Origin: Dioszegia crocea
Taxonomy: Eukaryota; Basidiomycota; Tremellomycetes; Tremellales; Bulleribasidiaceae
Assembly (NCBI GenBank): GCA_001600615.1
Contig: BCKK01000006.1
Location: 1,505,966 to 1,569,965 of the forward strand
Reading direction: 5' to 3'
DNA: 64,000 bases
The position numbers and the translations under genes were made by a program. The notes below the pieces were generated by a model. It worked only from the letters and a program-made list of their open reading frames with translations. It had not been told where the DNA came from and did not search any database. Numbering within the stretch: the first letter of the stretch is position 1; each line of letters starts with the position of its first letter. This document shows positions 1 to 58,142 of this stretch, piece by piece.

Positions 1-369
1 CGGCTGCCTACTTCCATGGAGAAGGTCACTCTTGTCCTTCCTAACCTTCCCTTAATCCAAGAGTCATGGGGGGTATACAGCGGGTTTGGCCAGTCGGCAG
101 ATGTCCTCGCACGTTTGGCCTTACCGCAAAGGGGCGGCGTACGAGCGATAGAGATAGTGGGGTTGGAAAGGGAGGTTTCCACGCGGCAATGGCATACGCT
201 GATGACGGCGTCTGACATGATCATGTCCTGCGTAGACGTCAACACCGGAGTGACATCGATGGACGGGGTACGGGGCCAGAGAGTAGGCACGGCGAAGAAT
301 GTGACGTTTGTGACCAGGGAAGAGTACGATAAGAGAGAGGCGGGCGGACGGTCGGTGGAAAGGGAGTGA
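1..369 (+). CDS. F-box family protein, C-terminal part (cut by window edge)
   Basis: The reading frame is open from base 1 (it reads LPTSMEKVTLVL before and through the ATG at 16), so the gene begins outside the window and that ATG is internal. What remains matches the end of the tandem family: the LPxTVEKLTLV strand, then IEIVGLE at about residue 44-50 of the ATG-counted frame, and a closing VTFVTREEYDKRE that corresponds to FxSRxEFDER in other members. The F-box and conserved middle are not visible. Stop is TGA at 367-369. It shows that the array continues to the left of the window. Confidence 0.75.
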   Translation, partial: RLPTSMEKVTLVLPNLPLIQESWGVYSGFGQSADVLARLALPQRGGVRAIEIVGLEREVSTRQWHTLMTASDMIMSCVDVNTGVTSMDGVRGQRVGTAKNVTFVTREEYDKREAGGRSVERE

Positions 370-752
370 AGGGAGAAGAGGAGGGTGACGCGTTGTCAGG
401 CTAGGGTGAGGCATGAGGTCGGGCGGAGTCGGGAGATAGGGAGATGTGGATGGGCCGGTCCAGTCGGCCGGGGCAATCTTGAAGTTCGAGCGATGTATGA
501 TTCTGGAGATCAAGAGATCCAGGTCATGATGCACGATACCTCCCAGCTGCTCTGACGCTGGTGAACTACCCGACTCTATAGCCAAACTGCCTGAATCTAT
601 AAGGACAATGCGAGCATGAAGCACATCAAGGCCCGTTCGGTAAAGAATTACCACATTCGGAAATTTTGCTCTCTTGCAAGTACCCGACCTCAAGCGACCC
701 ATACCTGTGTACATCACTCTCTCCTCCCCAATCTCAAGCCCAATCCTGCATC
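370..752. other. Intergenic, 383 bp
   Basis: This is the 3' flank of the partial gene and the 5' flank of the next. I see no gene, RNA or clear repeat. A long minus-strand frame across it (121-717) has Pro/Ser/His-rich composition and no family similarity, so I treat it as a shadow. Confidence 0.5.
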
Positions 753-1790
753 ATGTCCACTCCAAGCGGCAGGTCCTCCCCCGAATTCCCCCTCGAAATA
801 CTCGAAAGCATCGTCGGGTATGTGGAACGGTCTCCGGACCTCGCAGCCTGCGCCCGACTCTCAAAAGCTCTTCACAAAACCGCAATTCCCCTCCTCTACC
901 GTCGCCTCATCATACCCTACAGCGACCAGAAGCAGGGGATCCTCCAGATCCTTGATCCAGAAGCCATCGAGGCGAACGCGCGCTTCTTCGAGTACCGCCG
1001 TCGGGGTGAATCTCAGACGCATCCGACATCCCACCCCTCGGATACCGCCCGCATTACCCTCTTATCCCGATTCCAATATGTAACCCACCTCTCTATCGAA
1101 AGCCACTCTGTTGGGTTCTGTGCCGTCACATCTCCTATCATAATGTCAGCGCTCATCACCCTTCGGGTCTTGCCTGGTAGTAGGACGAGTACTCTATCCT
1201 TGTGCCTGCAAGACGAGGATGAGGACCGCGAGACTTGTCCGTTTGTCGAGCATCTTCGTCCTCGTCATCTCATCCTTGGTGGACCTCACGAGACCGGGTT
1301 TACTGGCCCCGCCACCGGTTTATGGTCCACCGAATCCTCATTCCCGCCACAGTGGATAAAATCCATCGTGCTCTACATCGGCTACTGGCCGGATGTCGAG
1401 TTTGAGACCAGTATCTGCAATCTCCCATCCACCTTGGAACGCTTCACTATGGTGTTTAAGCCAATTAACGGCGATAAGTGGGACAGGGAAGAGCCTTGGG
1501 CAAGCGAGGGATGGGTAGATCCCCAAGTGATGTTTGGACAAGTGGTGGGGTTGTGTGATGGGGATTGCGGAGTGGTGGAGGTTGTGGGTCTAGAAGGGAT
1601 AGACGAGACGTGGCGAGGGAACATGTCGGTGGAAGAAATGGAGAAAGCGATTCGGGTGGAGTTAGCGCAAAATCTAATGGACCGGGAGGACGAAGCGGAA
1701 GAGGTGGTGCGGAAATTGTTTGCCGTCAAGTTTTTGAGCAGGAATGAGTTTGCGCAGAGGGAGGCGAGAAGGGAGGTGCGGCTGCACTAG
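753..1790 (+). CDS. F-box family protein (group A)
   Basis: Intronless, 345 aa. The F-box-like domain lies at about residues 11-57 (FPLEILESI, then AACARLSKALHK, then IPLLYRRL). The conserved middle follows: THLSIESH at about 111, CPFVEHLRPRHLILGG at about 162-177, TGLW at 188, FPPQWIKSIVLYIG at about 197-210 and LPSTLERFTMV at about 224-234. The C-terminal block is VVEVVGLEGIDETW at about 280-293, ending FLSRNEFAQRE. The family resembles SCF substrate adaptors, so a role in choosing ubiquitin-ligase targets in cytoplasm or nucleus is inferred. The open frame extends upstream without a Met, so 753 is the first in-frame ATG. It is the most divergent group A member; the linker (about 60-105) is Glu/Arg-rich. 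Confidence 0.85.
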   Translation: MSTPSGRSSPEFPLEILESIVGYVERSPDLAACARLSKALHKTAIPLLYRRLIIPYSDQKQGILQILDPEAIEANARFFEYRRRGESQTHPTSHPSDTARITLLSRFQYVTHLSIESHSVGFCAVTSPIIMSALITLRVLPGSRTSTLSLCLQDEDEDRETCPFVEHLRPRHLILGGPHETGFTGPATGLWSTESSFPPQWIKSIVLYIGYWPDVEFETSICNLPSTLERFTMVFKPINGDKWDREEPWASEGWVDPQVMFGQVVGLCDGDCGVVEVVGLEGIDETWRGNMSVEEMEKAIRVELAQNLMDREDEAEEVVRKLFAVKFLSRNEFAQREARREVRLH

Positions 1791-8239: not shown

Positions 8240-8728
8240 GGCTAGAGGTGGATTGTTGGGTGTACCGCTCGCTCTTGCTCTTTGTTTGGATATCTAATGT
8301 GCTTCATGATAAGTCCAGCATGTATATATACACGATGTAATGTAGACATTCAGCATTCAGTCTGTACTTTAGAGGCTTGGCAATGTGGACAAGGCAGATC
8401 TGTGATGAGCAAAGCTGGTCGCGCCAAATTCTAGTCCTCTTTGCTTCATGTTGTCATTCCGCTTTCAACCCTACTTACATACAATTCCTTCTATCTATCC
8501 ATTGGGTTCTTGCGGCACATCTCAGCCGGACGCGCTCGAGCAGTCCATGGGCTATGATATCGTGAGACCTAAAGCTCCGGGGCGCGCTCGGACGGGAAGC
8601 GAATAAAGGTCGAGATCCCATAGGCGGTGCAAATTTATGACTCGCCCCCTATCCCTTTCACTTTCATCATACGCCCAATCTTTCATCTCAATCCCCGTCC
8701 AACCACGGTCGCAACATTGTACCTCGTC
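8240..8728. other. Intergenic with group B promoter box
   Basis: 489 bp. It holds the 3' end of VCX1 and, at 8594-8604, the recurring group B box (listed separately). Nothing else recognised. Confidence 0.5.
8594..8604 (+). promoter_or_regulatory. Group B upstream box (GGGAAGCGAAT)
   Basis: The sequence GGGAAGCGAAT lies 135 bp before the ATG at 8729. The same box, with at most a few changes, occurs at a similar distance before most group B genes. Its function is inferred from conservation between paralogues; it may also simply have been copied with them. Confidence 0.5.
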
Positions 8729-10009
8729 ATGTCACCCAGTACGCGCTTCCTCAAATCCCTCCGTGATCACATTGGGCCCAAACCAAACCCACCGCGCGAT
8801 CCAATCCCTACCGATATCCTCCTCGCCATCATCCCACATCTCGCCCCTGCCCAACTGGCCATCTGCGCCAGAGTCTCTCAGCTATTCTACCAAATCGTCA
8901 CTCCACTCCTCTACCAATCTATCTACATCAACCTGGACAAAGACATCAATGCGGTCTTCAGGCGACGAGTCTTGCCTTTCGCAAGGCATAGGCGGGTTAC
9001 GAAGGCGTTGGCGAAAGTGGGGATAGAGAAGGAAAGGATAACTGTCATTGATAAATTGAAGGAAGGAGAGGGACTTGGAATAGGTACCAAGTCTAAATTC
9101 AGATTCGCAAAGATTACGGTCCCTCTGCACCACCCTCTCGACCTCCCCATCGAACCTACTTCATACCACAGATTTCACTTCGTCACCAGCCTAACCATCA
9201 CGGCTCACCTTCGGACCCTATGCGAGACCCTTCGTCGGCCCGTCATGCCTTCCCTTGTAGACCTGCGGATTCGCCCAGGTCTACATCAAGTTCATTTCGA
9301 CCTCTGTCGATGCGAGCATTTTAGGGAGGACGAGATTATGCCAGGTTTTAACGGTCGGTGTACGGCAGCTCCTCCTTGCATCTGTCCCCTTCTATCTCAT
9401 CTCAGACCCCGCCGGTTGCTCATCGGAGATGACACCACCGGACTTTCAGGTTCTGGTATGGGCTTTAACCCTACTTTTCCACCCTTCGCCACTCATCTTC
9501 GAGAAATTGTCGTCTTCGTCGGCGCATGTACCGGCTGCGAATTTTTGGAGCAGGCTGCTCATCATTGGGTAGAGAGGATCTCATCATCCGTCGAAAAGCT
9601 CACAATGGTGATGCAACCTCGAGAGGAGGTGGAGGGCTGGATGAGGATGAAGAATCGGCATGAGTTTAGCCGGATGTTATATGTCCGAGAAGGGCTGTGG
9701 GAGTTCCCAAATGGACGATGGCGAATGATGAAAGACGAGTCGAGGGATGAAAGGCTGTATGGTCCAGAGCGGCTTTGGCGCGAATTGGGTTTGGCCATGA
9801 TTGGTAAAGCGGGGATTTTGGAGGTGGTGGGTCTCGAGACGGTCGATCGGGACTGGACCAAGATGTCAGTCAAGGAGGCAGAAGAAGAGTTGAGGGATTC
9901 ATTGAGGCGCTGGCTGGTGGTAGGTTATGACTGGGCAGAGGAGGCGGCGGAGGCTAGGGTACAGGCTATCAGATTTATGGATAGGAAGGAGTTTGACGCT
10001 CGTCAGTAG
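8729..10009 (+). CDS. F-box family protein (group B)
   Basis: Intronless, 426 aa; 8729 is the first ATG in a frame open from 8627. The F-box-like domain spans about residues 25-70 (PIPTDILLAIIPHL, LAICARVSQLFYQIVTPLLYQS). A basic linker (about 75-130) follows. The middle has SLTITAH at 154-160, MPSLVDLRIRPGLHQVHFDL at about 173-192, a Cys set at 193, 195, 211, 217 and 219 (CxC ... C ... CxCP), then LRPRRLLIGDDTTGLSGSGMGF and LREIVVFVGACTG. The end is EVVGLETVDRDW, then FMDRKEFDARQ. It is closest to the 10491 gene: linker, Cys set and end are collinear. The Cys arrangement could bind a metal, which is inference. Confidence 0.9.
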   Translation: MSPSTRFLKSLRDHIGPKPNPPRDPIPTDILLAIIPHLAPAQLAICARVSQLFYQIVTPLLYQSIYINLDKDINAVFRRRVLPFARHRRVTKALAKVGIEKERITVIDKLKEGEGLGIGTKSKFRFAKITVPLHHPLDLPIEPTSYHRFHFVTSLTITAHLRTLCETLRRPVMPSLVDLRIRPGLHQVHFDLCRCEHFREDEIMPGFNGRCTAAPPCICPLLSHLRPRRLLIGDDTTGLSGSGMGFNPTFPPFATHLREIVVFVGACTGCEFLEQAAHHWVERISSSVEKLTMVMQPREEVEGWMRMKNRHEFSRMLYVREGLWEFPNGRWRMMKDESRDERLYGPERLWRELGLAMIGKAGILEVVGLETVDRDWTKMSVKEAEEELRDSLRRWLVVGYDWAEEAAEARVQAIRFMDRKEFDARQ

Positions 10010-10490
10010 AGAAGGAGGTACATGAGATCAATGGGGGTGGGCTGGAATTCCGAGGGGAATGTGATTCACCATTAGATAGCTCGATAGGCTAGTATTAATT
10101 AAAGATAGCGGTAGGTCAGAGGATATAGGACATGACAGTCACACGTCTCAAAGACCCGTCAACAGTTGCCGGAAGAGGTAATGGTCAGACGATCATCATT
10201 GCCGCACAAGCGGCCGTAGATGTCAGTCTTTCAGCAATTTCACTCACGCACTACAGCTGCATCATGTCGACCAACCGCAGTCAATCGGTCGTCCTCTCGG
10301 CCAAAGCGCTCCGGAGAAACAAAGCGATGCGTAAAGCAGTGTATGGAAAGCGAAGAGTTCCGGAGTGACTCAGGCGGGAAGCGAACATGATCGGAACTGT
10401 AATCATCCCCTTGACCCTTTCACTCGTCCCATTTCAACCTCCTGACTTATTGTTCGTCTTCTCAAGAGTTCTACTCACATTCCATCCACC
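10010..10490. other. Intergenic with group B promoter box
   Basis: 481 bp. It contains the box at 10376-10386. A 78-codon + frame (10132-10368) has no family similarity or known domain, and I do not call it. Confidence 0.5.
10376..10386 (+). promoter_or_regulatory. Group B upstream box (GGGAAGCGAAC)
   Basis: This is a perfect copy of the box, 115 bp before the ATG at 10491. A related GGAAAGCGAAG is at 10345. Confidence 0.5.
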
Positions 10491-11768
10491 ATGCGACTGC
10501 TACAGGTCCCGGCAAAGTGGCGGATACGGAGGTCTGCCGATATAGTCAAACGCAATTCGGATTCAATCCCTACCGATATGCTTCTCGCCATCATCCCTTA
10601 CCTCGCTCTTGACGAGTTGGCCATCTGCGCTCGAGCCTCCTGGCTTCTCTACGAAATTGCCACTCCCCTCCTGTACCGATCTGTCTATGTCAACCTGGAC
10701 AGAAATGTCAATGCGCTGTTTAGGCGGCGCCTTTCGCCTTTCGCAAGGCATCCTAGAATGGCTCGGGCGCTGGGAATGATCGGGATGGGTCAAGAGAAGA
10801 TGTGGGCGCATGATGAAGTGAAGAATAAGGGAATGGGCCGAGCACTTGCAGGAAGAAGTAGAACTGCGGCGACACAATCGGACGGTTTCATTCACGTCAA
10901 ACTCCCCCTTACGCCCTACCGATTCCAATTCGTCGTCAGCCTCACCATCACCGCCCACACTGTCATCCTCTGCAGCAACCTCCCTCCCCTGGTTATGCCA
11001 TCCCTTAAAGATCTCCGGATTCGTCCAGGGCTACATCAAACCCACTTTGATTTATGTCAATGCGCCCACTTCTTCTTTGACTTCTTCAGCATGGCCGAAT
11101 GGAACGGTTGCTGCAGCAATATGGTCAATCCCTGTGTCTGCCCACTCGTATCCCTCCTTAAACCCCGCCGACTGCTCATCGGAGACGACACCACCGGGTT
11201 ATCTGGCTCAGGTATGGGTCTCGACCCCACCTCCCATCTCTTTAGTCCTGCGCTCAAAGAGATTGTCGTCTTTGGCGGCGCCTGTACCGGATTCGAAACT
11301 ATGCCTCAGGCGTATCATTCCTGGCTCGGTATGATCCCTGCCTCGATCGAAAAGCTTACGCTGGTCATGCAGCCTCGAGAAGTCTTGAGCGCCTGGGAAA
11401 GGGCTCAGCCGGAAGCCGATGATTTCAGCGTGATGCTAAACATACGGAGGCTACTGTGGGAGACGCCGAATGGGACATGGAGGTTCATAAATCATCAGGG
11501 GTCAGAAGGAAGGGTCTGTGGGCCACCTTACCTCTGGACAGTGTTGAGTAAAGGTCTGATTGGGAAGGCGGGGATGTTGGAGGTTGTCGGATTGGAGACG
11601 GTCGATAGGGACTGGACGGAAATGACGATAGAGGAGGCTGAGGCGAGATTAAGGGAGGTGTTTAGGGTCGAGTTGGTCGAGTATCAGGATTGGTCGGAAG
11701 AGGATGCGGAGGCTAGGTCGCAGGGGATCAAGTTCATGAGTAGGAGGGAGTTTGACGAGAGGCAATAG
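10491..11768 (+). CDS. F-box family protein (group B)
   Basis: Intronless, 425 aa, ATG directly after CCACC. The F-box-like domain is at about residues 25-70 (SIPTDMLLAIIPYLALDEL, AICARASWLLYEIATPLLYRS). The linker is basic. The middle has SLTITAH, MPSLKDLRIRPGLHQTHFDL, a Cys-rich run (DLCQCAHF ... GCCSN ... CVCPL), PRRLLIGDDTTGLSGSGMGL, LKEIVVFGGACTG and IEKLTLVMQPRE. The C-terminal block is EVVGLETVDRDWTEM and ends FMSRREFDERQ. It is the nearest relative of the gene at 8729, with near-collinear linker and end, so the pair arose by a recent tandem duplication. Confidence 0.9.
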   Translation: MRLLQVPAKWRIRRSADIVKRNSDSIPTDMLLAIIPYLALDELAICARASWLLYEIATPLLYRSVYVNLDRNVNALFRRRLSPFARHPRMARALGMIGMGQEKMWAHDEVKNKGMGRALAGRSRTAATQSDGFIHVKLPLTPYRFQFVVSLTITAHTVILCSNLPPLVMPSLKDLRIRPGLHQTHFDLCQCAHFFFDFFSMAEWNGCCSNMVNPCVCPLVSLLKPRRLLIGDDTTGLSGSGMGLDPTSHLFSPALKEIVVFGGACTGFETMPQAYHSWLGMIPASIEKLTLVMQPREVLSAWERAQPEADDFSVMLNIRRLLWETPNGTWRFINHQGSEGRVCGPPYLWTVLSKGLIGKAGMLEVVGLETVDRDWTEMTIEEAEARLREVFRVELVEYQDWSEEDAEARSQGIKFMSRREFDERQ

Positions 11769-12072: not shown

Positions 12073-13380
12073 ATGCCGTCAGAAGCCGACTGCTCGGAAG
12101 GAGATTATCCCACCAGAAGAAACCAAGAGTCCCGCCCAAAAGACCTCTTCCCGAGCGATATCACCTACTCGATTCTAGCCCTCCTCGCCCCTGCCCAACT
12201 AGCCGTCTGCGCCAGAACATCGCGACTGTTCTACGAGATCGTCACTCCACTTCTATACACGTCGACGCATATTGACTTTGACAAAAATGTTAATCAACTC
12301 TTCACGAAATCCAACTCGGCAAAGGCGGATGACCATTCTCGAGTAGGTCGGGTGATGGCGATGATTGGGATGCAGCGCGATGGGGTGACAGTTGTGGATA
12401 AGGTGAAGAAGAGGGGCTTATTTGGGAGGGCGAAAGTCTCCTCTCTCAGCAGAGCCAAACCGACAAAATTTGACCAAAGTCAATTCCTCATTCGCCCTAA
12501 CCCCCTTCGACCCAGATTCAGCTTCACCACCCACCTCACCCTAACCGCTCACTCGCACCCCATATGCGACAGCCTCATTCCCCTGTCTATGCCTCTACTA
12601 CATACTCTCCGCATCCGACCCGGGTTGCATCAAACCCACCTCGATTTCTGCACCTGTCGTCATTTCGATGACGATTACGGTCGATTCTCCTCCGCTGACA
12701 GAGGGCACTGCCCGAAATTCCCCGCATGTCTCTGCCCCCTCATCTCACGCCTGCGTCCCCGCCGAATACTTCTCGGCGACGATACCGCGGGGCTCACCGG
12801 ATCCGGTATGGGGCTCTACCCTCATCTTCCCCCTCTTGTCGAATGCATCCGAGAAATCGTCATCTTCGTCGGGGCGAATACAGGCCTGGAATTACGTCCC
12901 CAGGCGGACTACACTTGGCTCGACAATATCGGCTCCACAGTCGAGAGGTTGACTCTGATTATGCAGCCTCGAGAGGAATCAGAGTGGGACGGCGCAGATC
13001 CGGCAGATTATGGATTCAGCCCTAATCTGCGGATCCGAGAGGGGCTGTGGGAAACGTCGGATGGGAGATGGAGGATGAGGAGGCTGATGGGGTTTGATGA
13101 TCCCTATGCTGGGGCAGATCTGCTCTGGGATCAGCTAGCCATGGGGTTATCGGGCAAAGCGGGGGTGATGGAGGTTGTGGGGCTGGAGAGTGTTGATAGG
13201 GATTGGACGGGATTGACGGTGGCGCAGGAAGAGGAGGCGGTGAGAGTCGCGCTGCGGGCGATGTTGAGACGAGAGGGGTGGGAGGAGAAAGAAGTTGATA
13301 TCAGGGTGAGAGGCGTCAGGTTTGTGGCGAGGGTGGAGTACGATGCGCGACGTGAACTTCGGGTCCCGGGCAGAATTTGA
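12073..13380 (+). CDS. F-box family protein (group B)
   Basis: Intronless, 435 aa from the ATG at 12073. The frame is open further, and an ATG at 11872 would add 67 residues with no family similarity; I chose 12073 because it leaves about 24 residues before the F-box, as in relatives. The F-box-like domain (about 24-70) reads LFPSDITYSILALLAPAQLAVCARTSRLFYEIVTPLLYTS. The middle has THLTLTAH, MPLLHTLRIRPGLHQTHLDF, the Cys set FCTCRHF ... HCPKFPACLCPLI, RPRRILLGDDTAGLTGSGMGL and IREIVIFVGANTG. It ends VMEVVGLESVDRDWTGL and FVARVEYDARRE. An ATG at 12040 in a good context opens only a short frame, which suggests the ancestral start was lost to a small indel. Confidence 0.82.
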   Translation: MPSEADCSEGDYPTRRNQESRPKDLFPSDITYSILALLAPAQLAVCARTSRLFYEIVTPLLYTSTHIDFDKNVNQLFTKSNSAKADDHSRVGRVMAMIGMQRDGVTVVDKVKKRGLFGRAKVSSLSRAKPTKFDQSQFLIRPNPLRPRFSFTTHLTLTAHSHPICDSLIPLSMPLLHTLRIRPGLHQTHLDFCTCRHFDDDYGRFSSADRGHCPKFPACLCPLISRLRPRRILLGDDTAGLTGSGMGLYPHLPPLVECIREIVIFVGANTGLELRPQADYTWLDNIGSTVERLTLIMQPREESEWDGADPADYGFSPNLRIREGLWETSDGRWRMRRLMGFDDPYAGADLLWDQLAMGLSGKAGVMEVVGLESVDRDWTGLTVAQEEEAVRVALRAMLRREGWEEKEVDIRVRGVRFVARVEYDARRELRVPGRI

Positions 13381-13683: not shown

Positions 13684-14709
13684 ATGTCGGGTACATCACA
13701 GGCACAATCTGCCGCCAAGTCTCTCGAGACCAGCAGCGGGCATCACCTCCCAATCGAGCTGCACGCCTTGATCATAGAATACCTCCCTATTGCCTCGCTC
13801 GCTGTCTTTGCTCGCGTTTCAATCACATACCATCACCTAGCCACTTCTCTACTATACAGAGAACTCACAATCGACCTAAAGCACAAACGCCATCCCTTCT
13901 CATCACTGCCATTTGTCGATGACACGGATGAGAGACCGCTCCCCCTTCTTGCCCCAGAGCCTGACACCGATTTATCCCCTACGAAATCCTACATCCAGTC
14001 GTATAACCGCTTCGAACATACCACACATCTCAAAATCCTGGCGCACCGGTCGATACACTGCTGCTATCATGCACCAGTCATGCCAAACCTCACACATTTG
14101 CACTTACTCCACGATACACGCTTTTGCTCCGCTCCGTCTGGGGCAGAGCCCGAGCGGGTCTTCAGGGCATGTCGCCTCATTCAGAACCTCTGTCCTCGTC
14201 AGCTATCACTCGGTGATGCCTCCTCATCGTTCGCCTATACCGCCCCGGGCCTCTACTCCCCATTCCCACCTCCATGGCTGAAAGAACTTGTCATCTTCCT
14301 GGGCGACGGCTGTCTGACCACCAATGGATATACCAATACAAATTTGGACGATTTGTCAGGGTTGCTGGATAGGGTCTCCCTCGTCTTCCAACCAACGGGA
14401 AACGTATGGTCTCCACGACCCCGAGGTTATTCTATTTCTTATCTGATGAGTAGACCTGAACTCGTCGATCGTTTGGCGGTGATGAGTTCCGGCCGCGCAG
14501 GCAGGGTGGAGATTGTGGGGCTGGAGATGCTTAATGAGTATTGGTCAGAATGTTCGGCAGAATCCATGGAGCAGATGATCAAGGAGGTGATTGCGGGCCG
14601 GATGTGGTCTGTTCACGGGAGGAAGCAGGATGAAGTGCAGAGGAGGATCACGAAAGAGGTGGTTTTCATGAGTAGGACGGAATACGATCTCAGGGTCGCA
14701 AGGTCATAG
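13684..14709 (+). CDS. F-box family protein (group B, divergent, short)
   Basis: Intronless, 341 aa, about 80 residues shorter than its neighbours because the basic linker and the Cys-rich insert are both reduced. The F-box-like domain is at about residues 21-66 (LPIELHALIIEYL, LAVFARVSITYHHLATSLLYREL). The middle shows THLKILAHR, MPNLTHLHLLHDTRFC, IQNLCPRQLSLGDAS and FPPPWLKELVIFLGDG. The C-terminal block is VEIVGLEMLNEYW, ending FMSRTEYDLRVA. The CxC...CxC set seen in other group B members is missing. It is either a degenerating or a functionally shifted member; the intact frame favours the latter. Confidence 0.85.
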   Translation: MSGTSQAQSAAKSLETSSGHHLPIELHALIIEYLPIASLAVFARVSITYHHLATSLLYRELTIDLKHKRHPFSSLPFVDDTDERPLPLLAPEPDTDLSPTKSYIQSYNRFEHTTHLKILAHRSIHCCYHAPVMPNLTHLHLLHDTRFCSAPSGAEPERVFRACRLIQNLCPRQLSLGDASSSFAYTAPGLYSPFPPPWLKELVIFLGDGCLTTNGYTNTNLDDLSGLLDRVSLVFQPTGNVWSPRPRGYSISYLMSRPELVDRLAVMSSGRAGRVEIVGLEMLNEYWSECSAESMEQMIKEVIAGRMWSVHGRKQDEVQRRITKEVVFMSRTEYDLRVARS

Positions 14710-15074
14710 AAAGGCTTCATTATGGGAAGGGAGCTTTGCCCCCGGTTATTGGGGAATTTAGGTACGTCCGAAAACCTTAACCCAAGTCGATTTTCGTGAT
14801 TCAACCCTTTCCCCCTTCTCAATCTTCAATATTGGTGCTTCTTGGCGCGTCCGTCCTTTCTATATCTCTTCCTACTGTCCCTGCTCCGATGGCCTGGTCT
14901 ACAGGGGGGCGAGACTCGGAATGTGTATGGGGCTGTGCCGGAAGCGAGGCGAGGGCGGGCGAGGACGAGAAGCGAAGAGGAACCGAGCTTGGCTGTGCCT
15001 TCTTTGACTATAACATCCTTCATTTTCCATCTCTTCTACTTCATCTTTATTGACCTATATCGCTAACAACCAAG
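14710..15074. other. Intergenic with degenerate group B boxes
   Basis: 365 bp. The run at 14941-14984 contains GAAGCGAGGCGAG and GAGAAGCGAAGAGG, related to the GGGAAGCGAAC box and about 100-135 bp before the next ATG. Nothing else recognised. Confidence 0.45.
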
Positions 15075-16370
15075 ATGACTCTCCCAAATCCCCAACCTCA
15101 CATCCACTCATACGACATCACTCAGCGCTCCATCTCCACAGTGACCGAATCACCTCCCAAGCCCAAATCCAAACCCACATGCGAACCCATCCATATCGAC
15201 ATCCTCCACGCTATCATCTTCTACCTCTCCAATCATGATCTAGCCATATCTGCACGAGTCTCAAGGGTCTTCTATGATATCGCCACTCCCTTCCTCTACC
15301 GCTCTATCACCATCGACCTAGACGAGCGGGTCAACCCACTTTGGAACCGTCCCAAAACCGTGTATCCCGAGTCGCCTGCCCAACCAACCCGATCGAAGCT
15401 ATCTACGGCTTTTGCCAAGATGGGTCTAGGGCGTAAGAAGGAGGATCCGTATGGCGAGCAGGATGCGCCTGTACGAAAGCGCGACTTCTTTCGTCGAAAC
15501 AAGGCGTTACCCACCTCGTCGCACGAGCCTTTTATCGCTTATCTACCCTCACCATCTCTTTCGGTCCCTATTCTTCCCAATCCCAATCCTCTCTCGAACC
15601 TTTTCGAATATACTACCCACCTCACCATCACTGCTCACCGTCATACCAACTGCGCCGACATCCCCCCTCTGATCATGCCCCATCTGCAATCATTACGCAT
15701 TCGTCCCGTCAACCACACCAATCACCTCGATTTCTGCCACGAACCGCTCTACACTGAGCAGTACAATCACTCCCCTGAATCCGTTACCCGCCTCTGCCCC
15801 CTCATTGCCCACCTCCGCCCCTCCCGCCTTCTCATCGGAGATGGCTTCTCTGGTCTGTCCGGCTCTGCCCTCGGTCTAACCGATACGGATTCCCCCTTCC
15901 CTCCACCATCAATCAAAGAGCTCGTAATCTTTGCAGGATGGAGTACAGGAATCGAATATGAGCCCGAGGGAAAACATTTCTGGCTGGACAAGATACCCTC
16001 CACTGTCGAACGATTGACAATTGTCATCCAGCCAGCTGAGGTGCCATGGGATATGGACGGGAGGTGTCGCATGAGGCGGATTCCGGGGTTTGAGGATTGC
16101 TTCGAGGCACCTTTACTGTGGAATAGGCTCGGAATGGCGTTATCGGGCGAAGCAGCGGTGATGGAGGTTGTTGGGGTCGAATGCGTTGATAGGGAATGGA
16201 CGGGGATTAGTGTACAGGCGGAAGAGGAGGAGATTAGGAGGGCGCTGGGGAAGAAGCTGGGGGAGAAGGGGAGGGGTGGGATGGAGGTGCAAAATACGGT
16301 GAGGGGGCTTAGGTTTATGAGTCGGAGGGAGTTTGATGAGCGGGAATCGAGGAGGGCAGGCGGTATTTAG
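15075..16370 (+). CDS. F-box family protein (group B)
   Basis: Intronless, 431 aa. The F-box-like domain is at about residues 38-82 (PIHIDILHAIIFYL, LAISARVSRVFYDIATPFLYRSITIDL). A basic linker with KMGLGRKKE follows. The middle has THLTITAHRHTNC, MPHLQSLRIRPVNHTNHLDFCH, CPLIAHLRPSRLLIGDG, SGLSGSALGL, FPPPSIKELVIFAGWSTG and WLDKIPSTVERLTIVIQP. The C-terminal block is VMEVVGVECVDREW, ending FMSRREFDERE. Unlike the 16846 and 18683 genes, the Cys set is reduced to FCH ... LCPL. Degenerate copies of the upstream box lie about 100-135 bp before the start. Confidence 0.9.
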   Translation: MTLPNPQPHIHSYDITQRSISTVTESPPKPKSKPTCEPIHIDILHAIIFYLSNHDLAISARVSRVFYDIATPFLYRSITIDLDERVNPLWNRPKTVYPESPAQPTRSKLSTAFAKMGLGRKKEDPYGEQDAPVRKRDFFRRNKALPTSSHEPFIAYLPSPSLSVPILPNPNPLSNLFEYTTHLTITAHRHTNCADIPPLIMPHLQSLRIRPVNHTNHLDFCHEPLYTEQYNHSPESVTRLCPLIAHLRPSRLLIGDGFSGLSGSALGLTDTDSPFPPPSIKELVIFAGWSTGIEYEPEGKHFWLDKIPSTVERLTIVIQPAEVPWDMDGRCRMRRIPGFEDCFEAPLLWNRLGMALSGEAAVMEVVGVECVDREWTGISVQAEEEEIRRALGKKLGEKGRGGMEVQNTVRGLRFMSRREFDERESRRAGGI

Positions 16371-16845
16371 GGGTGGACTACATCTTAGACTGGAGTGCGG
16401 ATAGATTAGACTAGTCTGCTCGTGGTATACTTATGGTCCAAGATAGACTACAGTACCTCTTGGTAGATGTGGGCCATAACGATAGTAGAATTCCCCGATG
16501 TGGCAATTTCCCCTATTTACCTACTCTGTTGAGCACATGATCGACACCATACATTTCATCTTCACAATCTAGCCATACCGTCTGTAGGCGTCAGATTTCC
16601 AGGGCTTCCCGAGATGCCATACTCAGAGTCTATACACACGGTGTCTCCGCTGCGCGAGTGTGTGATATGACGAGCTGTGCCTATTTGGGGAAGCGAGATA
16701 TGTGCGAAAGGGATACGGTCGGGAAGCGAACAAGAGGGAAGCGAGCTGTGTTCATCGCCTTCGCATATGACTATAGTGTCAGTCCTTGGGCCTTGCACTC
16801 TATCTCTATTACCTGTTATCATACCAAGCTGAGATTAGCACAGAG
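16371..16845. other. Intergenic with three group B boxes
   Basis: 475 bp. It holds three close copies of the box between 16687 and 16745 (listed separately) and no gene. Confidence 0.5.
16687..16745 (+). promoter_or_regulatory. Cluster of three group B upstream boxes
   Basis: GGGGAAGCGAG at about 16687, GGGAAGCGAAC at 16721 and GGGAAGCGAG at 16736 all lie within 60 bp, 100-160 bp before the ATG at 16846. The tight repetition of one motif favours a real binding site over chance. Confidence 0.5.
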
Positions 16846-18072
16846 ATGTCATCCACATCATTCCCCAATTCCAATCCACCCCCCTATACTCTAATCAATT
16901 TCCCTCACCCCCGACCCCACCCCCCACCAAAAGCTACGCGCTCTCTCATTCCAAATGAGATCCTCATCCTCATCATCTCCAAACTTGCCAAACCTCAATT
17001 GGCCCTCTGCGCTCGCACCTCACGGTTAATCTACGCTATTGCCACTCCGCTCTTATACCACACTACCATCGTTGATTTCTTCGATGATATCAATCCTTTA
17101 TTCACACGTGTCGTTGTGGAAAATAGGCCTTCTTGGCTAGGGGGACCAAAGGTGAAGATTTTGGTCACTGGTGGTGGTGGGGCGAAGGGGAAGGCTGAGC
17201 AGCCTTTTGTGGAGCCTAAATTCACAATCGACGAACCGACACTACCCACTTTCGACCAACTTACCCTATCCCCATCAATCACACATATTCCCGATCGATT
17301 CAGCTTCGTAACCTACCTCACTCTCCCCACACACGATTATAAAGACTGCTCCGTCCTCCCTCCGCTCCGCATGCCCCTCCTTTGGGAACTCCGTATCCAA
17401 CACACTAGCTGGCAGCACAATCTCGATTTCTGCCAATGCCGACATGTCGCACCAGACACTGCACACTGTACCAAATCCCCTACCTGCATCTGTCCCCTCA
17501 TCTCCCAACTTCGCCCTCGCCGTCTAGTCGTCGGCGGCGGAATGACCGGTCTGACCGGATCCGCCCTCGGTCTGACAAAGACAGGCTTCCCTTTCCCTCC
17601 TCCTTGGGTGAAAGAACTCGTCGTCTTTGCTGGAGCATGTACGGGGATCGAGATGGGTCCAGAGGCGGATTACTGCTGGCTGGCCAAGATCCCGCCTACT
17701 GTCCAGAAGTTGTCGATAGTCATGCAGCCGCGAGACTCGTATGATCAGCCCAGATGGAACTTTAGGCGTGTGGCGGCGTTTGAAGGTCGGATTGATCCGG
17801 ACTTTCTGTGGAGGAGACTGGGGCAGGCATTATCGGGGAGTGCAGTCGCGGTGGAGATGGTTGGGATTGAGAAGATTGATAGGGATTGGTCGGAGTTGCC
17901 AGTCAAGCTAGAAGAGGAGGCGGTGACGAGGGCGCTGAGGAAGGTGTTGGTGGCTAAAGGGTGGAAAGGGTCGGATGCTGAGGCGCGAGCGAGAGGATTG
18001 GGGTTTGTGAGTCGGGAGAAGTTTGACGGGAGGCGGTCGGTACAAGGAAAGACGGGGAAGCCGAAGAGGTGA
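16846..18072 (+). CDS. F-box family protein (group B)
   Basis: Intronless, 408 aa; 16846 is the first ATG in a frame open from 16786. A Pro-rich N-terminus is followed by an F-box-like domain at about residues 34-79 (LIPNEILILIISKLAKPQLALCARTSRLIYAIATPLLYHT). The middle has YLTLPTH, MPLLWELRIQHTSWQHNLDF, the Cys set FCQCRHV ... HCTKSPTCICPLI, LRPRRLVVGGGMTGLTGSALGL, FPPPWVKELVVFAGACTG and IPPTVQKLSIVMQPRD. It ends EMVGIEKIDRDWSELPV and FVSREKFDGRRSVQGK. The last two signatures are shared almost word for word with the 18683 gene, its closest relative. A 16-unit heptamer array begins 66 bp after the stop. Confidence 0.9.
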   Translation: MSSTSFPNSNPPPYTLINFPHPRPHPPPKATRSLIPNEILILIISKLAKPQLALCARTSRLIYAIATPLLYHTTIVDFFDDINPLFTRVVVENRPSWLGGPKVKILVTGGGGAKGKAEQPFVEPKFTIDEPTLPTFDQLTLSPSITHIPDRFSFVTYLTLPTHDYKDCSVLPPLRMPLLWELRIQHTSWQHNLDFCQCRHVAPDTAHCTKSPTCICPLISQLRPRRLVVGGGMTGLTGSALGLTKTGFPFPPPWVKELVVFAGACTGIEMGPEADYCWLAKIPPTVQKLSIVMQPRDSYDQPRWNFRRVAAFEGRIDPDFLWRRLGQALSGSAVAVEMVGIEKIDRDWSELPVKLEEEAVTRALRKVLVAKGWKGSDAEARARGLGFVSREKFDGRRSVQGKTGKPKR

Positions 18073-41985: not shown

Positions 41986-43734
41986 ATGTCAGAGCAAACC
42001 AGCGAAACTACCCAAACTGTCCCAACCTCAATCTGGGACAGGATCACTACCCTCTTCTTCTTGCCCAAGATCGTCCAAGCCACCCCTTCACTCGGGCCGT
42101 CTATCCCGTCAGCCACCATCATCACATCCCTAGCTCTAAGCGGGGCTATCACTCCCGAACAGCCGGCGGTCCCGTCAGCTCACTCCGGTACCGTCGTTCC
42201 AATCACCATCACTGAGTTGATTGATACCATCGTGCTTGTAAGTATCGTCTCATCAGCCATTTGGCAAAGCTTACAGTACAGCCCACTCCGACTGCTCCTA
42301 CCCTTCGCATCTTGACGGTTCCCTCCAAGCCAGATGCTCAAATCAAGCTCGTCCACCTCGCCAATACCATCATCCTCATCCGCGCCATCCCTCCTAATTC
42401 ACTCGTCCTCCGATCAAAACCCGTCGTCGAACCCAAACCTGCCGTTCAGGCACAGTCCGCTCGACGGCTCACTCCCCCGAACAAGAATGGCTACTCCATC
42501 CCAGTCGAAATCTACCTCCTCATCCTCCCCACAGCTTGTCCGGATGCTCCGGGTGTCTCGCTTCTTCCACTTCCTCCTCGCTCCATCACTCTATCGTACC
42601 CTCTACTCCATCGTCGACATTGCCCTTCCCAACACAATTTCCCCACTCTCCATCAGGCGAATCCCTATCCCATCACGCGAAGTGATCGCTCTCACCGCTC
42701 AACGCGTTCTGACGAGCTCGATAGATTCGAGCGGAATCCAGATGGACCTCAGGCAAATCATCATCAAACTCCCCCTTCCCAACCCCCTCGAATACGTCAC
42801 TCACCTCACCCTACCCCAGCACAAACGCACCGTCTGCTCTTCCTCCGTCGCCCTAGTCATGCCGCATATCAAAACGTTGCGCATCCGGCCCAACGGATCC
42901 GACGACGGTATCTCCCTCTGCCTCGGCTTTCACGATACCACCTGCCCCCTCATTGCCAAGCTCCAGCCTTCACAACTCATCATTGGCGGCGGCAGCACTG
43001 GCCTCAGCGGGTCTTTCGCCGGTCTCTGGTCCACTGGCCCACTGCCCTTCCCACCTCCTTTCGTCACCCACCTCGTCGTCCTCGTCGGGTTGTTCACTTT
43101 GTTTGACCTGGGCGAGGACAAGGCTGCAGCTATCTTTCGCCAGATGCCCGGCACGGTGGAGAAAATCTCATTCGTGCTCTCGTGCGCGGAGCTAGCCTGG
43201 GACAATCTGTCCGACGTTGGCAATCCTGCGATTGACGATCAATTGGATGAGATGGTGGAGGCCGAAGTGATTGGGCGGACGGCGATGCGAGCCTCGGTCG
43301 GACAGGCGGGTGCTATCGAGGTAGTGGGGGCAGGTGAAGAGATTAGGGCGCAGATGCCAGCGGAGCTGGAGAGGTGCCTCATCAAGATGGGACATAGCCT
43401 CACAGTGGCGGACAAAAGGTTCAAGGCGGTGGTGTTCATCACGGATGAGACGTTTGAGGAGCGAGAGGGATGGTTTGCGGCGTAGAGGGCAGAGTCGAAG
43501 GAGGTCCTAGTCGAGAAGGTGTTGGGACTGGCAAGGGCTGTGGCGGGGGCTAGGCAGGCAGCGGCGCTACAGCATGCGAGCATGGAGCAGGCGAGGTTGG
43601 AACAAGTGCGGCAAGATGAAGAGGACGATTGCATGGACTACGACAAGCACGGCATGTGCGACAATCCAGACCACGATCACCGAACCTGCGATGATTTCGA
43701 CTACGATGACAACTATGACTGGGATGGCTACTGA
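41986..43734 (+). pseudogene. Group D F-box gene with frameshift in the F-box and a premature stop
   Basis: Three unusual things occur. First, the N-terminus (41986-42237, MSEQTSETTQTV) is joined in frame by a 44-nt GT-AG intron (42238-42281) to PTPTAPTLRIL and on to NKNGYSIPVEIYLLI; other members lack introns. Second, at about 42530 the F-box breaks: about five codons are missing relative to sisters and the frame moves by one, after which LVRMLRVSRFFHFLLAPSLY continues. Third, a TAG at 43483 follows EGWFAA, yet the same frame stays open to 43734, reading RAESKEVLVEKV and a Cys/Asp/His-rich tail (DYDKHGMCDNPDHDHRTCDD) that matches the 37545 gene after WYAAEQAESRE. The middle (THLTLPQH, MPHIKTLRIRP, TCPLIAKLQPSQLIIGGGSTGLSG) is intact. 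I judge it recently inactivated. Confidence 0.75.
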
Positions 43735-47090: not shown

Positions 47091-47494
47091 GCCGAATGAT
47101 GGGAGAGATTCATGCTGTACGACGCACATGATCTACGCTGAGTTTGCGTGGGGCTAGAACGATGGGCGAACAAGTGGAGAGGCTGGGGAGGGAGATTGCA
47201 GATGTGGATCTTCGGGGATGGCCCATAGGTGGACAATCTTGAATGGAAAGGGATGGTGGGGAATGTGAGGAGTCCACTGTCAAGCTGTATAGTGAGTCGT
47301 CCGTCCTTCTATTCTTTCCTCTTCTGGTTGACCTTCATGGGCTGCCCAACGGCGGAAGAGTGGGGAAGAGGGGGAGTGGACCTAAACCCGACCGTCTCGG
47401 ACGAGACAACCAAAGGAGGGTTCTGGCAATTTTACCCTCTTCTACCGTCTTCTTTCATCCACCTCTCTCTTTCCTGCATACATCAACCGGCAAG
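47091..47494. other. Intergenic with group F G-rich block
   Basis: 404 bp. The segment at about 47353-47435 (AGAGTGGGGAAGAGGGGGAG, then GACGAGACAACCAAAGGAGG) resembles the flanks of the 51933 and 54028 genes. No gene. Confidence 0.5.
47353..47435 (+). promoter_or_regulatory. Group F upstream G-rich block, copy 1
   Basis: A G-rich run, then GGACGAGAC and AAAGGAGGGTTCTGGCAATT about 65 bp before the ATG at 47495. The copy before 54028 has AAAGGAGGGGTCTCGCAATT at the same relative place. Confidence 0.5.
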
Positions 47495-48633
47495 ATGTCT
47501 GCTAATACCACCTCAGCTACGCAACCAGCTTGTTCCGCCACTCCCAAACTACCCAATCCCATCCCCGTCGAAATCCTCAGTCGCATCATCAGCCAACTTT
47601 CCACTCCTGAGCTCGGTCGTTCTGCCCGTGCTAGTCGACTGTTCTACCTCATCGCTACTCCTATACTGTACCGGACAGTCTATATCGATATCTCCCTCTC
47701 TATCAATCCCCTCTTTATTAATGGTGTCCCTATCCCCAACTTCTCTTGGGAGACGACCAAACCCACATCCAACAGTCCACTTCCCATCAGCCAAGCCATC
47801 AATGACCTGGTCGACCCCCTATCCCTCGAACCTTCCCTTCCTCCGCTCCTCCCCATCCGCGACAGATTCCTCTACACCACCCACCTCACTATACGCGCTC
47901 ATCGTCGAGACCAGTGCAGCCTGGTACTCCCTCGTATCCTAGTCATGCCCTGCTTGTGCGCGTCGAGCCCAATGCGGACGATCATTATCTCGATCTCTGT
48001 ACCGCATTGCGTTGCCCTCTCATGCGAGGTCTTCATCCCCGTAAAGTCACCCTCGGCGGAAGGACTACCGGGCTCTCGGGCAGCGCCATGGGTTTATCCT
48101 CGGAACCTCCTTCTCGATCGCCCTCCGACCCCATACTCCCTAATCTGAAATTCTCATTCCCTCCTCCTCACGTCAAAGAGCTTGTCATTCGTGTGGGCGT
48201 TCCGCGCGAACCCGGGCAACCCCATGTCCGTCTTGGACGTAACGTACCCACCGCGCTCTTCCTGAAGGATCTTCCTAAATCTCTCACTAGAGTGACTTTT
48301 GATCTGTGGATGGTCCAAGTAAGGTTCCTGTTAGCTGAGCTACCTGACGGATTCGACCAGGACTACTTGGCCAATGTCATAAAGGGCAATCTAGGAGAGG
48401 CGTGTTCGGGTGATGCGCAAGTGGTGGAAATAGCGGATTACGAGTCAGTGGAGGCGGGCTGGAACAGAAACAATGACACCCCTTTCAAGGTCTCTATGAG
48501 GGGAGACGTTGAGTTCTACCTGAAACAGAAGGGCTGGATGGACGAGGCGGCTGTGAAAAGAGCAGATGAGGTGAAATTTGTTGGAAGGGCGGAATGGCGG
48601 GCGAGATCGGCTGTAGCTGCCATCGGAGGTTAA
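47495..48633 (+). pseudogene. Group F F-box gene with a single frameshift
   Basis: From the ATG at 47495 the frame reads a good N-terminus and F-box-like domain (about residues 21-66: NPIPVEILSRIISQLSTPELGRSARASRLFYLIATPILYRT), then THLTIRAHRRDQCSLVLPRILVMP. Right after VMP, near 47951, the family sequence jumps to another frame: LLVRVEPNADDHYLDLC, CPLMRGLHPRKVTLGGRTTGLSG, FPPPHVKELVIRVG, VVEIADYESVEAGW and VKFVGRAEWRARS to the stop at 48633. Sister genes have a few more residues between the two parts, so a small deletion is likely. No usable intron signals bridge it. Everything else is intact, so the lesion is recent or a sequence error. Confidence 0.75.
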
Positions 48634-49014
48634 GATGGGAGAAAGAGGGAACTTGGCGTAACACTTGCACGGAGAGTGAAGAAGATACGGCAATATGTGG
48701 TATGAGGCTGGCGATTGAGAGGTGCGAGATGAGTGCAGGAAATCGTCTGGAGTTGGAGTGGAATGAGGGGGTGTCAATATCTTTCAGGATGGACCTGTCT
48801 GGTAGAGGTTCCGTAATAGTCTCACACTACATATAGGATCTGCTAGTATCCAATCAGCGTGGTGAGCCAAGGATACCTACCTTTAGGCTGAAGCATGATG
48901 TAGGTCCAGCATACCTCAAATCCTGCACGTGGCAGCGGGAACCCATAAGGCGCTTTCCCTTCCGCTGCGACCATCGATATCATCTCTTCATCTATCCTCG
49001 AAATACAGCTCACC
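48634..49014. other. Intergenic, 381 bp
   Basis: Promoter region of the 49015 gene; nothing else recognised. Confidence 0.45.
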
Positions 49015-50225
49015 ATGACTTCCAACACCCCTCCGACGCCCTCCTCTGGTCAGAGAGACCAACTCCCATTTGAGTTGATCGTACAAATCGTATCACACGT
49101 ACCCACCAAAGCGGATCTCTCGCGCCTCATGCGGGTTTCATCCGAGCTCTACCTTCTCGCCTGCCCCGTCCTATACGACACAATCGAGGTTGATCTCTCA
49201 CTTCCTCGTCATCCTCTATCCTCTCTAAATTCTTCACCTCGCACTTCCACCACCACTGGAACCCTCCATTCCCTCCCCTCTCGCTTCTCCTACACCACAT
49301 CCCTAACGATAAACTCCCACTTCAAGGACGCATGCCAAGGAATGGCCCCACTCAATATGCCCTCCCTCCGCACTCTCCGGTCTCGCCCTACGAAAGACAC
49401 CAATGACTCTCTTAAATTATGCTGTACACGCGGGTCAGCATATCTGAACTCAATGAGCTCGAAACCTACCCCATCTCGATGTTGTCCCCTCATCGCCAAT
49501 TTGCGTCCCCGGCAGATCATCCTTGGCGGAAGGGAATCTGGATTCGATGTAATCGATACCATCTTATGGCCAATCACGACTCACGGCTCTCAACCGGCGT
49601 TCAACGACTCTTTGCCCAACTTCATAGAGGAGGTCGCAATCATTGTTGGGAGTGGCATTCAGTTATCTCGCGCCAATAATGATTGGCTTATGAATGTGCC
49701 GAGCTCAGTCAAGAGGTTGACTTGTGTCATGTGCACCTGGGACACGGAAGCTGGAGAGAAGCAAAAGAGAGCTGTGAAGGATGAGGTCGGACAAGGTGAC
49801 GAGTCAGGATTCGGAGATGATGATGAGAATGAAGAGGAAATGGACTGGGAATACAGAGGGGAAACCTTGGATTCTGACTCGGTACTGGGGAAACTGGCAG
49901 ATGTTCTCAGTGGTGAAGCCAGATGACTGAGGTGGTGGGGTATGAAACGGTCAATGATGCAGTGGCCGGCGATGACGAACTGAAGGAAGAACTAGCGTCG
50001 CATATGGAGGAAATGAATGATGATGAGGAAGATGTCAAGAAGAGGATTGACTCATTACGGTTCTTCAAGGGAGATGAGTTCTTGAGGGAGAGTATGGGTG
50101 ATGCGGAATTGTGGAAGAGCCGAGAGCAGATTAGGAGGGCGGTGGTTTTGGAGGGGAGGATGGTTCTGGGGTTGTCGGGTTGGGTGGACTTGCCTAGGCT
50201 GTGCGTGTGGAGTGGGAGTTTTTGA
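49015..50225 (+). pseudogene. Group E F-box gene split by a one-base frameshift (ATGA overlap)
   Basis: The first frame (49015-49926, 303 aa) carries the F-box-like domain (about 16-62: QLPFELIVQIVSHVPTKADLSRLMRVSSELYLLACPVLYDT), NMPSLRTLRSRP, CCPLIANLRPRQIILGGRESGFD, FIEEVAIIVG and VPSSVKRLTCVMCTWD. It then has an acidic stretch and stops after VLSGEAR. The second frame starts at an ATG at 49923 whose ATGA overlaps that stop, and supplies the missing end: TEVVGYETVNDAV, LRFFKGDEF and ESMGDAELWKSREQIRRAVVLEGR. In the sister at 45894 these parts are one protein. A single lost base (AGAATG to AGATG) explains it. Either the gene is dead or the two parts are translated by reinitiation. Confidence 0.75.
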
Positions 50226-55624: not shown

Positions 55625-56280
55625 ATGCCTCTATTGGAGGAGCCTACCAGTGACCGCTATGTCTCGCTCACTTCGCGGCCGGTGGAGGTATATCTCTCAA
55701 CACTCCTCTTCGCTACCAGGCGGACCTCGCGCGGGTCATGCGAACATCTTCCGAATTCTACCGTATCGCCTGTTCTTTCCTATACTGCCGGCTAGATTCC
55801 GATCCAGCTCAACGACCCAGTCGATGCTCGATCAATCCTGAAGCTGCTGACTTGATCACTCTCAGGCAGGCAGACGACAGGTCAATCTTATTTCGACTCG
55901 ATCTCGGTCTAATACCAAATCGACCTCATCCCACTGCGATCCTACCATTCTCAATCCTCCTCCTCCCAACTTGCCTCCGTCCGACCTCTTAAATTTCCTA
56001 CCGGACCGATTTGGCTATACGGAATACCTCCCCCTCGACGCACACTAACCCGAGGCATGCTGGAATCTATCATCTATCGATCTGCCCAAATCTCGTCACA
56101 CTGAGAATACGTCCTCATCGATACGATTCAACCCGCCGGGGCCCTCTCGACAAGATGTTATCAGCGTGTAGGCGTACTGTCGATCCCTCGTATTCACCGT
56201 TATCCTGCTCGATTCTGCCTTGTGGACGAAAATTTACTCTGGTCGCTGCAAAATGTCATCTAAGGGCGGCGAAGGAATGA
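55625..56280 (+). pseudogene. Heavily decayed F-box gene (group E)
   Basis: Pieces of one family member lie in order but in different frames. MPLLEEPTSDRY leads to PVEVYLSTLLF at about 55685 (F-box start), then RTSSEFYRIACSFLYCRLDSD at about 55740-55800 (matching MRVSLRLYLIACQLLYARLDID of 45894), DRFGYTEYL at about 56005, and CPNLVTLRIRPHRYDS near 56085-56130 (the MPNLxxLRIRP motif). At least three frame changes and stops interrupt it. No GG-TGLxG motif or C-terminal block is seen after 56280. It is an old pseudogene, more decayed than the single-lesion copies nearby. Confidence 0.7.
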
Positions 56281-56925
56281 GCTGGGTCTATCAGGTTTCA
56301 CCAGAGGAGGGGAATGCGTCATAGGGCGTGGTGGGAGGGAGGAGGGAGGGTACTGGGAAGAGGGAGAGTCTTGGGGTATTATCAGGGATGCTGTAGTGGA
56401 GGATCAGGGTAGGGACATTGGGAGACGGGGCGGTTGATGCGGAGGATGAGAGTAGTCAAGAGGGTCATTGTGGGGATGGCATGAGGTGGGCTTGACCGTC
56501 AGTCAGTGTGCTGTCTGTTCGATGTGAGGCGTCAGACTTGTGAGTACTACCACTTCATTTGTCCACCCTGGATCTGAAGGACCATGTCTATCATCATCAA
56601 GAAGGGGCAGCCGGACGACTGGGGGGCTCAGGCATCAATATCCAATCATCAGACCTTATCGTGTATCCCGCTCCCATATCAGCTATTGAACGGAGTAAGC
56701 TGATTCCATCAGGCGCGGTTCCGTACGCGCTGTCTATCCATCTATCGTTTCTCAGGCATTCATATACCCCACTATGGCCAACAGACACACCCCATGCTAG
56801 GGTCCCAACACCGAAGGCACACACAACACGTGTCATGGCCGATAACAGGCTCGAAATTTCCCCCCTCCCTTTGCTCAATCGCACTTCATTCTGCCATCAC
56901 ACTTTTTGCGACGTCCAGTACCACC
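56281..56925. other. Intergenic, 645 bp
   Basis: It probably holds the unrecognisable end of the 55625 pseudogene and the promoter of the next gene. No gene is supported. Confidence 0.45.
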
Positions 56926-58142
56926 ATGACACCCCCTCCCCTTCCCGCCGACCCCACCCCGACCGAAAAGCCAACCGGCCGACTCCCCGTTGAACTCTAC
57001 AGCTCCATCATCGCTTTCCTCCCCCGTCCAAACCTCCCATCAGCCATGCGCGTCAACTCGGCATTCTACACCTCAGCCGCCCAGCATCTCTACTCCCATC
57101 TTAACGTCGACCTCGATGATCCCAAATGCCCGTTCATCCCTATACCCAAAATCATCCTCCGCCAAACTACCGTCACTTTCCCTCTCGTCAGCCACCCCTC
57201 GACCTCTCCCCCACCATATGGTGTCCTTGCCTGCTCCCTTCTCGATTCTCATACACTACTCACCTCTCTATCGTCAAACACCACTCGCGAGCGTGCGCCA
57301 AACTCCCTATCCTGTCTATGCCTAATCTCGTCTCCCTCTGGATCCGTCCGAAAACCGTACCGGGTTATCAAACACTTTGCCACTGCCTCAAGTCCGGTCG
57401 AGGAGCAATCAATCCTTGCAAGAAGCATACTACTTGCCATTGCCCCCTCCTTTCGAACCTCCGTCCATCCCAACTCATTCTAGGTACTATCGAGTACGGG
57501 CTCACCGGGACCGCCTTCGTCTGGCCAACGTCAGCCACCTCCATACCCCCTTTCGTCGAGCACCTTGTCATTGACTTGTGGCACCACACCCAATTGACCG
57601 AATGTCAACCTTTCTTGGCTGCCATCCCCTCTACCGTCAAGCGTTTGACGCTAGTCGTGCAGCGCTTCAAACCGCGTGACCAAATCCGACCGGAAGGAAT
57701 CGAAGAGGCGGATGATGACGATGACGGGGAATTGATTTATGACGACGATGATTCCTTTACGTTCTCCAGGAAGATACTGAATTACTTGGAGAGGGTGGGA
57801 CCGGGAACGAAGATGGTGGGGGGGTTATGGAACCACATTATGGGGTCATCCATCGGGAGCGGGGCGATAGAGATGGAGAGGGAGATAGTGGGGTATGATG
57901 GGCTGTTCAAAAGGGCTTCGGAGAAAGAGGTAGAGGCGCAAGTTGAGCAAGTGAGGGTGTCGGTCAAAGGACACCTGGTGGGGCGGTTTGGGGACGAAAA
58001 GGAGGCGGAAGAAAGGGCGGGGGCGGTCAAATTCTGGACGGGCGAGGAATATCTGAAGGAGATGGATGGCGAGGGGATGCAGGTGGTCAGGGACCTGGTT
58101 AAGGAGGCGGTGATTGAGGGTCGCAATCAGACACACATCTGA
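56926..58142 (+). pseudogene. Group E F-box gene with a frameshift after the F-box
   Basis: The frame from the ATG at 56926 gives the F-box-like domain at about residues 18-64 (GRLPVELYSSIIAFLPRPNLPSAMRVNSAFYTSAAQHLYSHLNVDL) and runs on to about 57230. The rest lies in another frame: LPSRFSYTTHLSIVKHHSRAC, MPNLVSLWIRP, a Cys-rich run (LCHCLKSG ... CKKHTTCHCPLL), LRPSQLILGTIEYGLTG, PPFVEHLVIDLW, IPSTVKRLTLVVQ, an acidic stretch, IVGYDGLF and VKFWTGEEYL, ending at 58142. The break is somewhere at 57150-57235, where no credible intron exists. An ATG at 56794 would add 44 unlike residues. The CxC ... CxC set here recalls group B. Disabled or an assembly error. Confidence 0.7.

Follow-up and report, generated by a model that had tools for sequence, protein, structure and literature searches.

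A same-strand tandem array of old, constrained F-box genes in the yeast-like fungus Dioszegia crocea

Organization of the array

A head-to-tail tandem array of one F-box gene family, with related members lying in blocks, occupies most of a 64,000-base stretch of the Dioszegia crocea genome (hereafter designated the window; C6:1505966–1569965 on the 1,688,665-base contig C6, in an assembly of 20.57 Mb and 17 contigs). A family profile hidden Markov model (HMM), built from 22 family open reading frames (ORFs) and run against all window ORFs of at least 20 amino acids on both strands, matched 31 ORFs at E ≤ 4e-6 and, more weakly, 4 others (E 0.048–0.69). The + strand carries all 35 matches and the − strand none, and reversed decoys gave a single match (E 0.8), confirming the same-strand array proposed in the original prediction. 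By our reading, the matches represent 20 genes that are intact, 4 that are damaged or split, and 4 fragments, close to the 23 members and five relics counted earlier. Each intact gene is a single ORF of 341–529 codons, in which an F-box region is joined by a variable linker to a conserved C-terminal domain of about 250 residues; family spans take up 34,135 of 58,142 bp (58.7%).

The members, named here by their start positions and all on the + strand, were further placed by maximum likelihood in a tree of 34 family sequences with ultrafast bootstrap (UFBoot) support. Seven intact genes form sub-block A (UFBoot 100), namely 8729–10006, 10491–11765, 12073–13377, 15075–16367, 16846–18069, 18683–19963, and 21934–23175; the intact gene 13684–14706 sits among them but belongs to another clade. 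Sub-block B (UFBoot 100) comprises the intact genes 31263–32609, 33523–35109, 35970–37169, 37545–38942, and 39818–41164, together with the damaged member 42334–43482, the F-box start of which is absent from its frame and weakly matched (E 0.69) in another. The pairs 2806–3930/4202–5299, 45894–47087/49015–50222, and 51933–53171/54028–55272 are each recovered with UFBoot 100, and 753–1787, 13684, and 28678–29931 group outside the blocks and pairs. All intact genes were matched by the profile HMM and placed in the tree; 2806, 4202, 8729, 21934, 28678, 31263, 51933, and 54028 were also matched in single F-box scans, and the last two in a single-protein search as well.

Besides the member at 42.3 kb, the damaged or split genes, identified with the profile HMM, lie at 47.5 kb (47495–48630, split across the frames of ORFs 47243–48145 and 47806–48630), at 49.0 kb (49015–50222, with its C-terminal end in another frame; ORFs 48949–49923 and 49917–50222), and at 56.7–58.1 kb (56704–58139, split across ORFs 56704–57480 and 57120–58139). 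The same model located the four fragments on the + strand: the C-terminal tail (1–366) of a split member that starts before the window, an F-box-end fragment (1978–2418), a C-terminal fragment (23488–23886), and a set of fragments in three frames (55654–56277), the first of which is strong (E 4e-6) and the others weak (E 0.05–0.08). The array thus begins upstream of the window, where the front part of the member with the tail at 1–366 is found; a further split member lies there at C6:1503802–1504898, and the 5.8 kb preceding it contains no family match. On C6 downstream of the array, the single-protein search listed no match.

Tandem origin

Position in the array follows phylogeny. Tree distance correlated with genomic distance in bp (Mantel rho 0.37; 0 of 5000 permutations as high) and by rank (rho 0.32; 4 of 5000), and 10 of the 22 genes had the adjacent member as nearest relative, where 2.0 would be expected (4 of 5000 permutations gave as many). 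The four side-by-side pairs singled out beforehand as close relatives (2806/4202, 8729/10491, 16846/18683, and 51933/54028) are indeed sisters, each with UFBoot 100. Head-to-tail duplication explains both the tree blocks and the single strand, and the blocks and the Mantel correlation together give the tandem origin that characterizes nematode-type F-box expansions. Genome-wide, among 54 pairs of neighbouring F-box-like matches no more than 12 kb apart, 50 share a strand; 18 of the 54 come from this array.

Among the family copies elsewhere, the four at C6:1.377–1.383 Mb (UFBoot 100) and those at C9:973–982 kb (UFBoot 99) fall into clades of their own. One copy of the C9 cluster lies on the opposite strand; therefore, the same-strand rule is not absolute. 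The same cluster includes an 832-residue open frame (L042 3963–6458; C9:976963–979458) that contains two complete family units (profile positions 27–413 and 29–407) and resembles a fused tandem duplicate. Another array of the window family lies at C10:368.5–382 kb (L043/L044), with all copies found on the − strand and their F-box and C-terminal parts in separate frames. An ad hoc intron scan covered 12 split members, five of which have overlapping frames with nothing scannable; among the other seven, a candidate intron was found in five (all four C10 copies, at every junction scanned, and the member at C6:1503802) and none in two.

Domains of the encoded proteins

The N-terminal F-box assumed in the original prediction was recovered by profile: PF12937 matched 20 of 22 members at E ≤ 0.1, and seven of ten members scanned singly passed the Pfam cut-off. 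The F-box also holds invariant or nearly invariant alignment columns.

The conserved C-terminal domain, modelled alone for 21934, gave a predicted local distance difference test score (pLDDT) of 88.9, indicating a foldable unit; a full-length model was made for 15075. In a second look with VIA-align, most of the 50 listed matches to the domain model were leucine-rich-repeat (LRR) proteins, including the F-box receptors D3, MAX2, TIR1, COI1, and SKP2. Foldseek searches of the PDB yielded no match at E ≤ 0.001 with either the full model or the C-terminal domain, and a search of a viral library with the latter likewise yielded none at this threshold, its best row being an LRR protein (E 0.017). 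The domain would probably adopt an irregular LRR fold. The predicted arrangement would resemble that of FBXL receptors such as SKP2, TIR1, COI1, and D3/MAX2, since the model of the domain after the F-box can be aligned with the LRR parts of these receptors.

In the C-terminal alignment (numbering of 22402–23175), His17 and Cys69 are invariant and Cys22 and Cys49 nearly so, 28678 lacking both of the latter. A metal site or paired cysteines may be guessed at for these residues.

An upstream element in sub-block A

Allowing at most one mismatch, the window contains 17 copies of the sequence GGGAAGCGAA (16 on the + strand), where 4.2 would be expected, and none of 100 shuffles reached 17. Its best copy lies 99–135 bp before the ATG in six of the seven sub-block A genes, at 8594–8603 (gene 8729), 10376–10385 (10491), 14967–14976 (15075, with one mismatch), 16721–16730 (16846, with additional one-mismatch copies at 16688 and 16736), 18563–18572 (18683), and 21835–21844 (21934), always on the + strand; the other 17 family starts examined have no copy within 220 bp. 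Upstream of these six genes there are 13 copies of the core AAGCGA, all on the + strand; further single copies lie upstream of 753 and, on the other strand, of 51933 and of 57126. When the six upstream regions were aligned, the best ten columns had a mean majority identity of 0.95, compared with a median of 0.40. An upstream-word test over four groups of family starts and three word lengths (12 tests, 200 nulls each) singled out the sub-block A group only (0.005, 0, and 0); a single 8-mer test at 0.04 for the group 45894/47495/49015/51933/54028 was discounted in view of the 12 tests made. In the whole genome, GGGAAGCGAAC occurs 14 times and its reversed control 26 times, four of the 14 lying between 10376 and 23587 of the window. 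Because the sub-block A genes are so diverged, the element would be a kept cis-element rather than a trace of shared descent.

Age and selection

Identity among window pairs has a median of 28% and reaches 60% in the closest pair. In pairwise GY94 (Goldman–Yang) estimates made by region for nine paralogue pairs, chosen as sisters or near relatives, the ratio of nonsynonymous to synonymous divergence (omega) was below 1 in all nine, for the whole gene and for every region. Synonymous divergence (dS) was usable in seven pairs (1.6–3.2, with whole-gene omega of 0.16–0.34) and saturated in the other two. Omega of the F-box was 0.10–0.35 in the seven usable pairs, and in six of all nine pairs the linker was the least constrained region. 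These results show old duplicates kept under purifying selection.

Positive selection was also sought with a site-class mixture on gap-free codons (356 codons of seven genes in sub-block A and 331 codons of six genes in sub-block B, with 20 null simulations each). No significant class above 1 was detected in sub-block A, where twice the log-likelihood difference (2dlnL) of 0.85 was reached by 2 of the 20 null simulations, and nothing above 1 in sub-block B (2dlnL 0.01). In power simulations, run for sub-block A with selected sites at omega 3, the test picked up 10% of sites in 11 of 12 runs, whereas detection fell to 5 of 12 for 3% of sites and to 4 of 12 for 5%; a small set of positively selected sites is thus compatible with the site test.

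A single-member database search found no outside relative. Of the full-length and C-terminal profile searches, which scored the approximately 8000 candidates sharing most words, the former matched only P0001 (E 1.2e-3), which was set aside, and the latter found P0002 (E 2.5e-80), the one clear relative from these three capped or word-limited searches. In the tree P0002 joins 10491 and leaves 8729 outside (UFBoot 100), with 74% identity for 10491 against 56% for its paralogue 8729. Hence, P0002 is likely an orthologue of 10491, and the 8729/10491 duplication seems to predate the split between P0002 and 10491.

The original prediction had described the family as rapidly diversifying and had suggested diversifying selection. 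The high dS (1.6–1.7 in the four pairs it named, with omega of 0.18–0.34), omega below 1, the null site test, and the grouping of P0002 argue against the former; the latter finds no support in any region of the nine pairs or in the site test, which is weakly powered for few sites.

Candidate SCF partners, other F-box loci, and neighbouring genes

One Skp1 locus, of two exons, was found in the genome. Two cullin loci on C12 and a third on C4 exceeded the cut-off, and a fourth match, on C1, was weak. At least 105 F-box-like matches were obtained when 150 of 172 candidates were scored, 104 of them over the cut-off; 72 lie in 18 clusters of at least two and 33 in single places. Another tandem F-box cluster lies at C3:131.5–150 kb (L045/L046). 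It was considered as part of the window family, but five of its ORFs (the sixth, L046 6344–8389, was not included), as well as its profile, match that family in the F-box alone; therefore, the cluster looks like a separate F-box family.

As had been noted, unrelated genes between the members lie on either strand, and so do those after the array. Between members there are weak Na/Ca exchanger matches on the + strand and a weak BTB match on the − strand (26218–27247, E 0.031), all three below the Pfam cut-offs; BTB proteins serve a different cullin ligase as adaptors. Beyond the array lie pirin and GH43 genes on the − strand and a DUF1275 gene on the + strand. A 7-base repeat, CTTCTGC, is present in 16.7 copies at 18139–18255, between 16846 and 18683. 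No tRNA was found in the window under a bacterial code setting, and no Rfam family reached its gathering score.

Discussion

We consider it likely, though well short of certain, that the array is an old and constrained tandem family of Skp1-docking receptors of the Skp1–cullin–F-box (SCF) ligase, with an LRR-like C-terminal domain and co-regulation within sub-block A. The role of SCF adaptor, put forward in the original prediction, is the likeliest reading, the genome having one Skp1 locus and several cullin loci. An ancestral gene would have been multiplied by unequal crossing-over; in each product the F-box would dock on the one Skp1 and the C-terminal domain would hold the substrate, so that each protein would act as an SCF substrate receptor of its own and probably mark other proteins for destruction. 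Six genes of sub-block A would be co-regulated through their shared upstream element, and copies would be kept as their substrates or expression differ. Several observations weigh against this reading: two of the 22 members lack an F-box match at E ≤ 0.1, three of the ten scanned singly score below the Pfam cut-off, and F-box scores are modest; four members are damaged or split; 12073 has no upstream element; and, for the C-terminal domain, all VIA-align Z values are below 8 and the best Foldseek match in the PDB has an E of 0.25, the top six rows being enzymes rather than LRR proteins.

The many divergent copies, with damaged members and fragments among them, would also suit an adaptor set engaged in something like an arms race, its substrate-binding domains under diversifying selection, as has been reported of nematode F-box genes. 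The class above 1 fitted in sub-block A takes 2.2% of the weight, the site test failed to detect omega 3 in 7 and 8 of 12 simulations with 3–5% of sites affected, and dS is high. However, omega stays below 1 in every region of all nine pairs, 2dlnL is unremarkable against the nulls in A and negligible in B, and the C-terminal domain is no looser than the F-box in four of the seven pairs with usable dS, so that we regard this explanation as improbable. We give about as little credence to birth-and-death drift, by which largely redundant copies would come and go by chance with little functional specialization: the presence of 4 fragments and of 4 members that are damaged or split among intact ones, and the other same-strand F-box clusters in the genome, fit it, but 20 ORFs kept open at a median identity of 28%, with omega of 0.16–0.34 in seven pairs, are unexpected of redundant copies. 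Less probable still, the F-box may be kept for another role, in Skp1-independent proteins or structural scaffolds. The modest F-box scores (20.4–31.5 bits in ten members) fit this possibility, as does the unexpanded Skp1, set against the many Skp1 copies of nematodes and plants; the low omega of the F-box in seven pairs and its invariant or nearly invariant columns speak against it.

The receptor reading may be compared with known systems. In a Caenorhabditis study (PMC8665587), the F-box families are reported to combine an N-terminal F-box with FBA2 or FTH, a C-terminal domain of about 300 residues; paralogues lie in tandem-duplication clusters with overall dN/dS below 1 in nearly all pairs, whereas C-terminal windows with dN/dS above 1.5 occur in 73 of 95 C. 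elegans pairs, along with species-specific turnover. The present family is alike in its N-terminal F-box, family-specific C-terminal domain, tandem clusters, and omega below 1, and unlike in having no region above 1 in nine pairs (whole regions here, not sliding windows) and in the likely orthologue of 10491. Pfam listed neither FBA2 nor FTH in the members, although no direct comparison was made. Fungal F-box proteins are described, in two further papers, as SCF substrate receptors with assorted C-terminal domains, numbering 20 in Cryptococcus neoformans, 16 in Ustilago maydis, 17 in Puccinia graminis, and 95 in Laccaria bicolor (PMC9781138, PMC7991009). Against these protein counts, our figure of at least 105 six-frame matches is a count of domains, not genes. 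In full-text searches of one open-licence library, we came across no paper describing an array of this kind in a yeast-like fungus.

A bolder version of the receptor reading, which we consider unlikely, is that the array is an ancient non-redundant repertoire with a new C-terminal recognition domain, its sub-blocks co-regulated by promoter elements and served by one Skp1, for the surveillance of many, perhaps foreign, proteins. The best-known large F-box expansions are those of plants and nematodes, for which fast turnover is a frequent explanation. A roughly 60-kb array in a genome of 20.6 Mb, with old, constrained copies, part of them carrying a shared upstream element, would be a counter-case to that explanation, and it makes testable why one Skp1 serves so many kept receptors.

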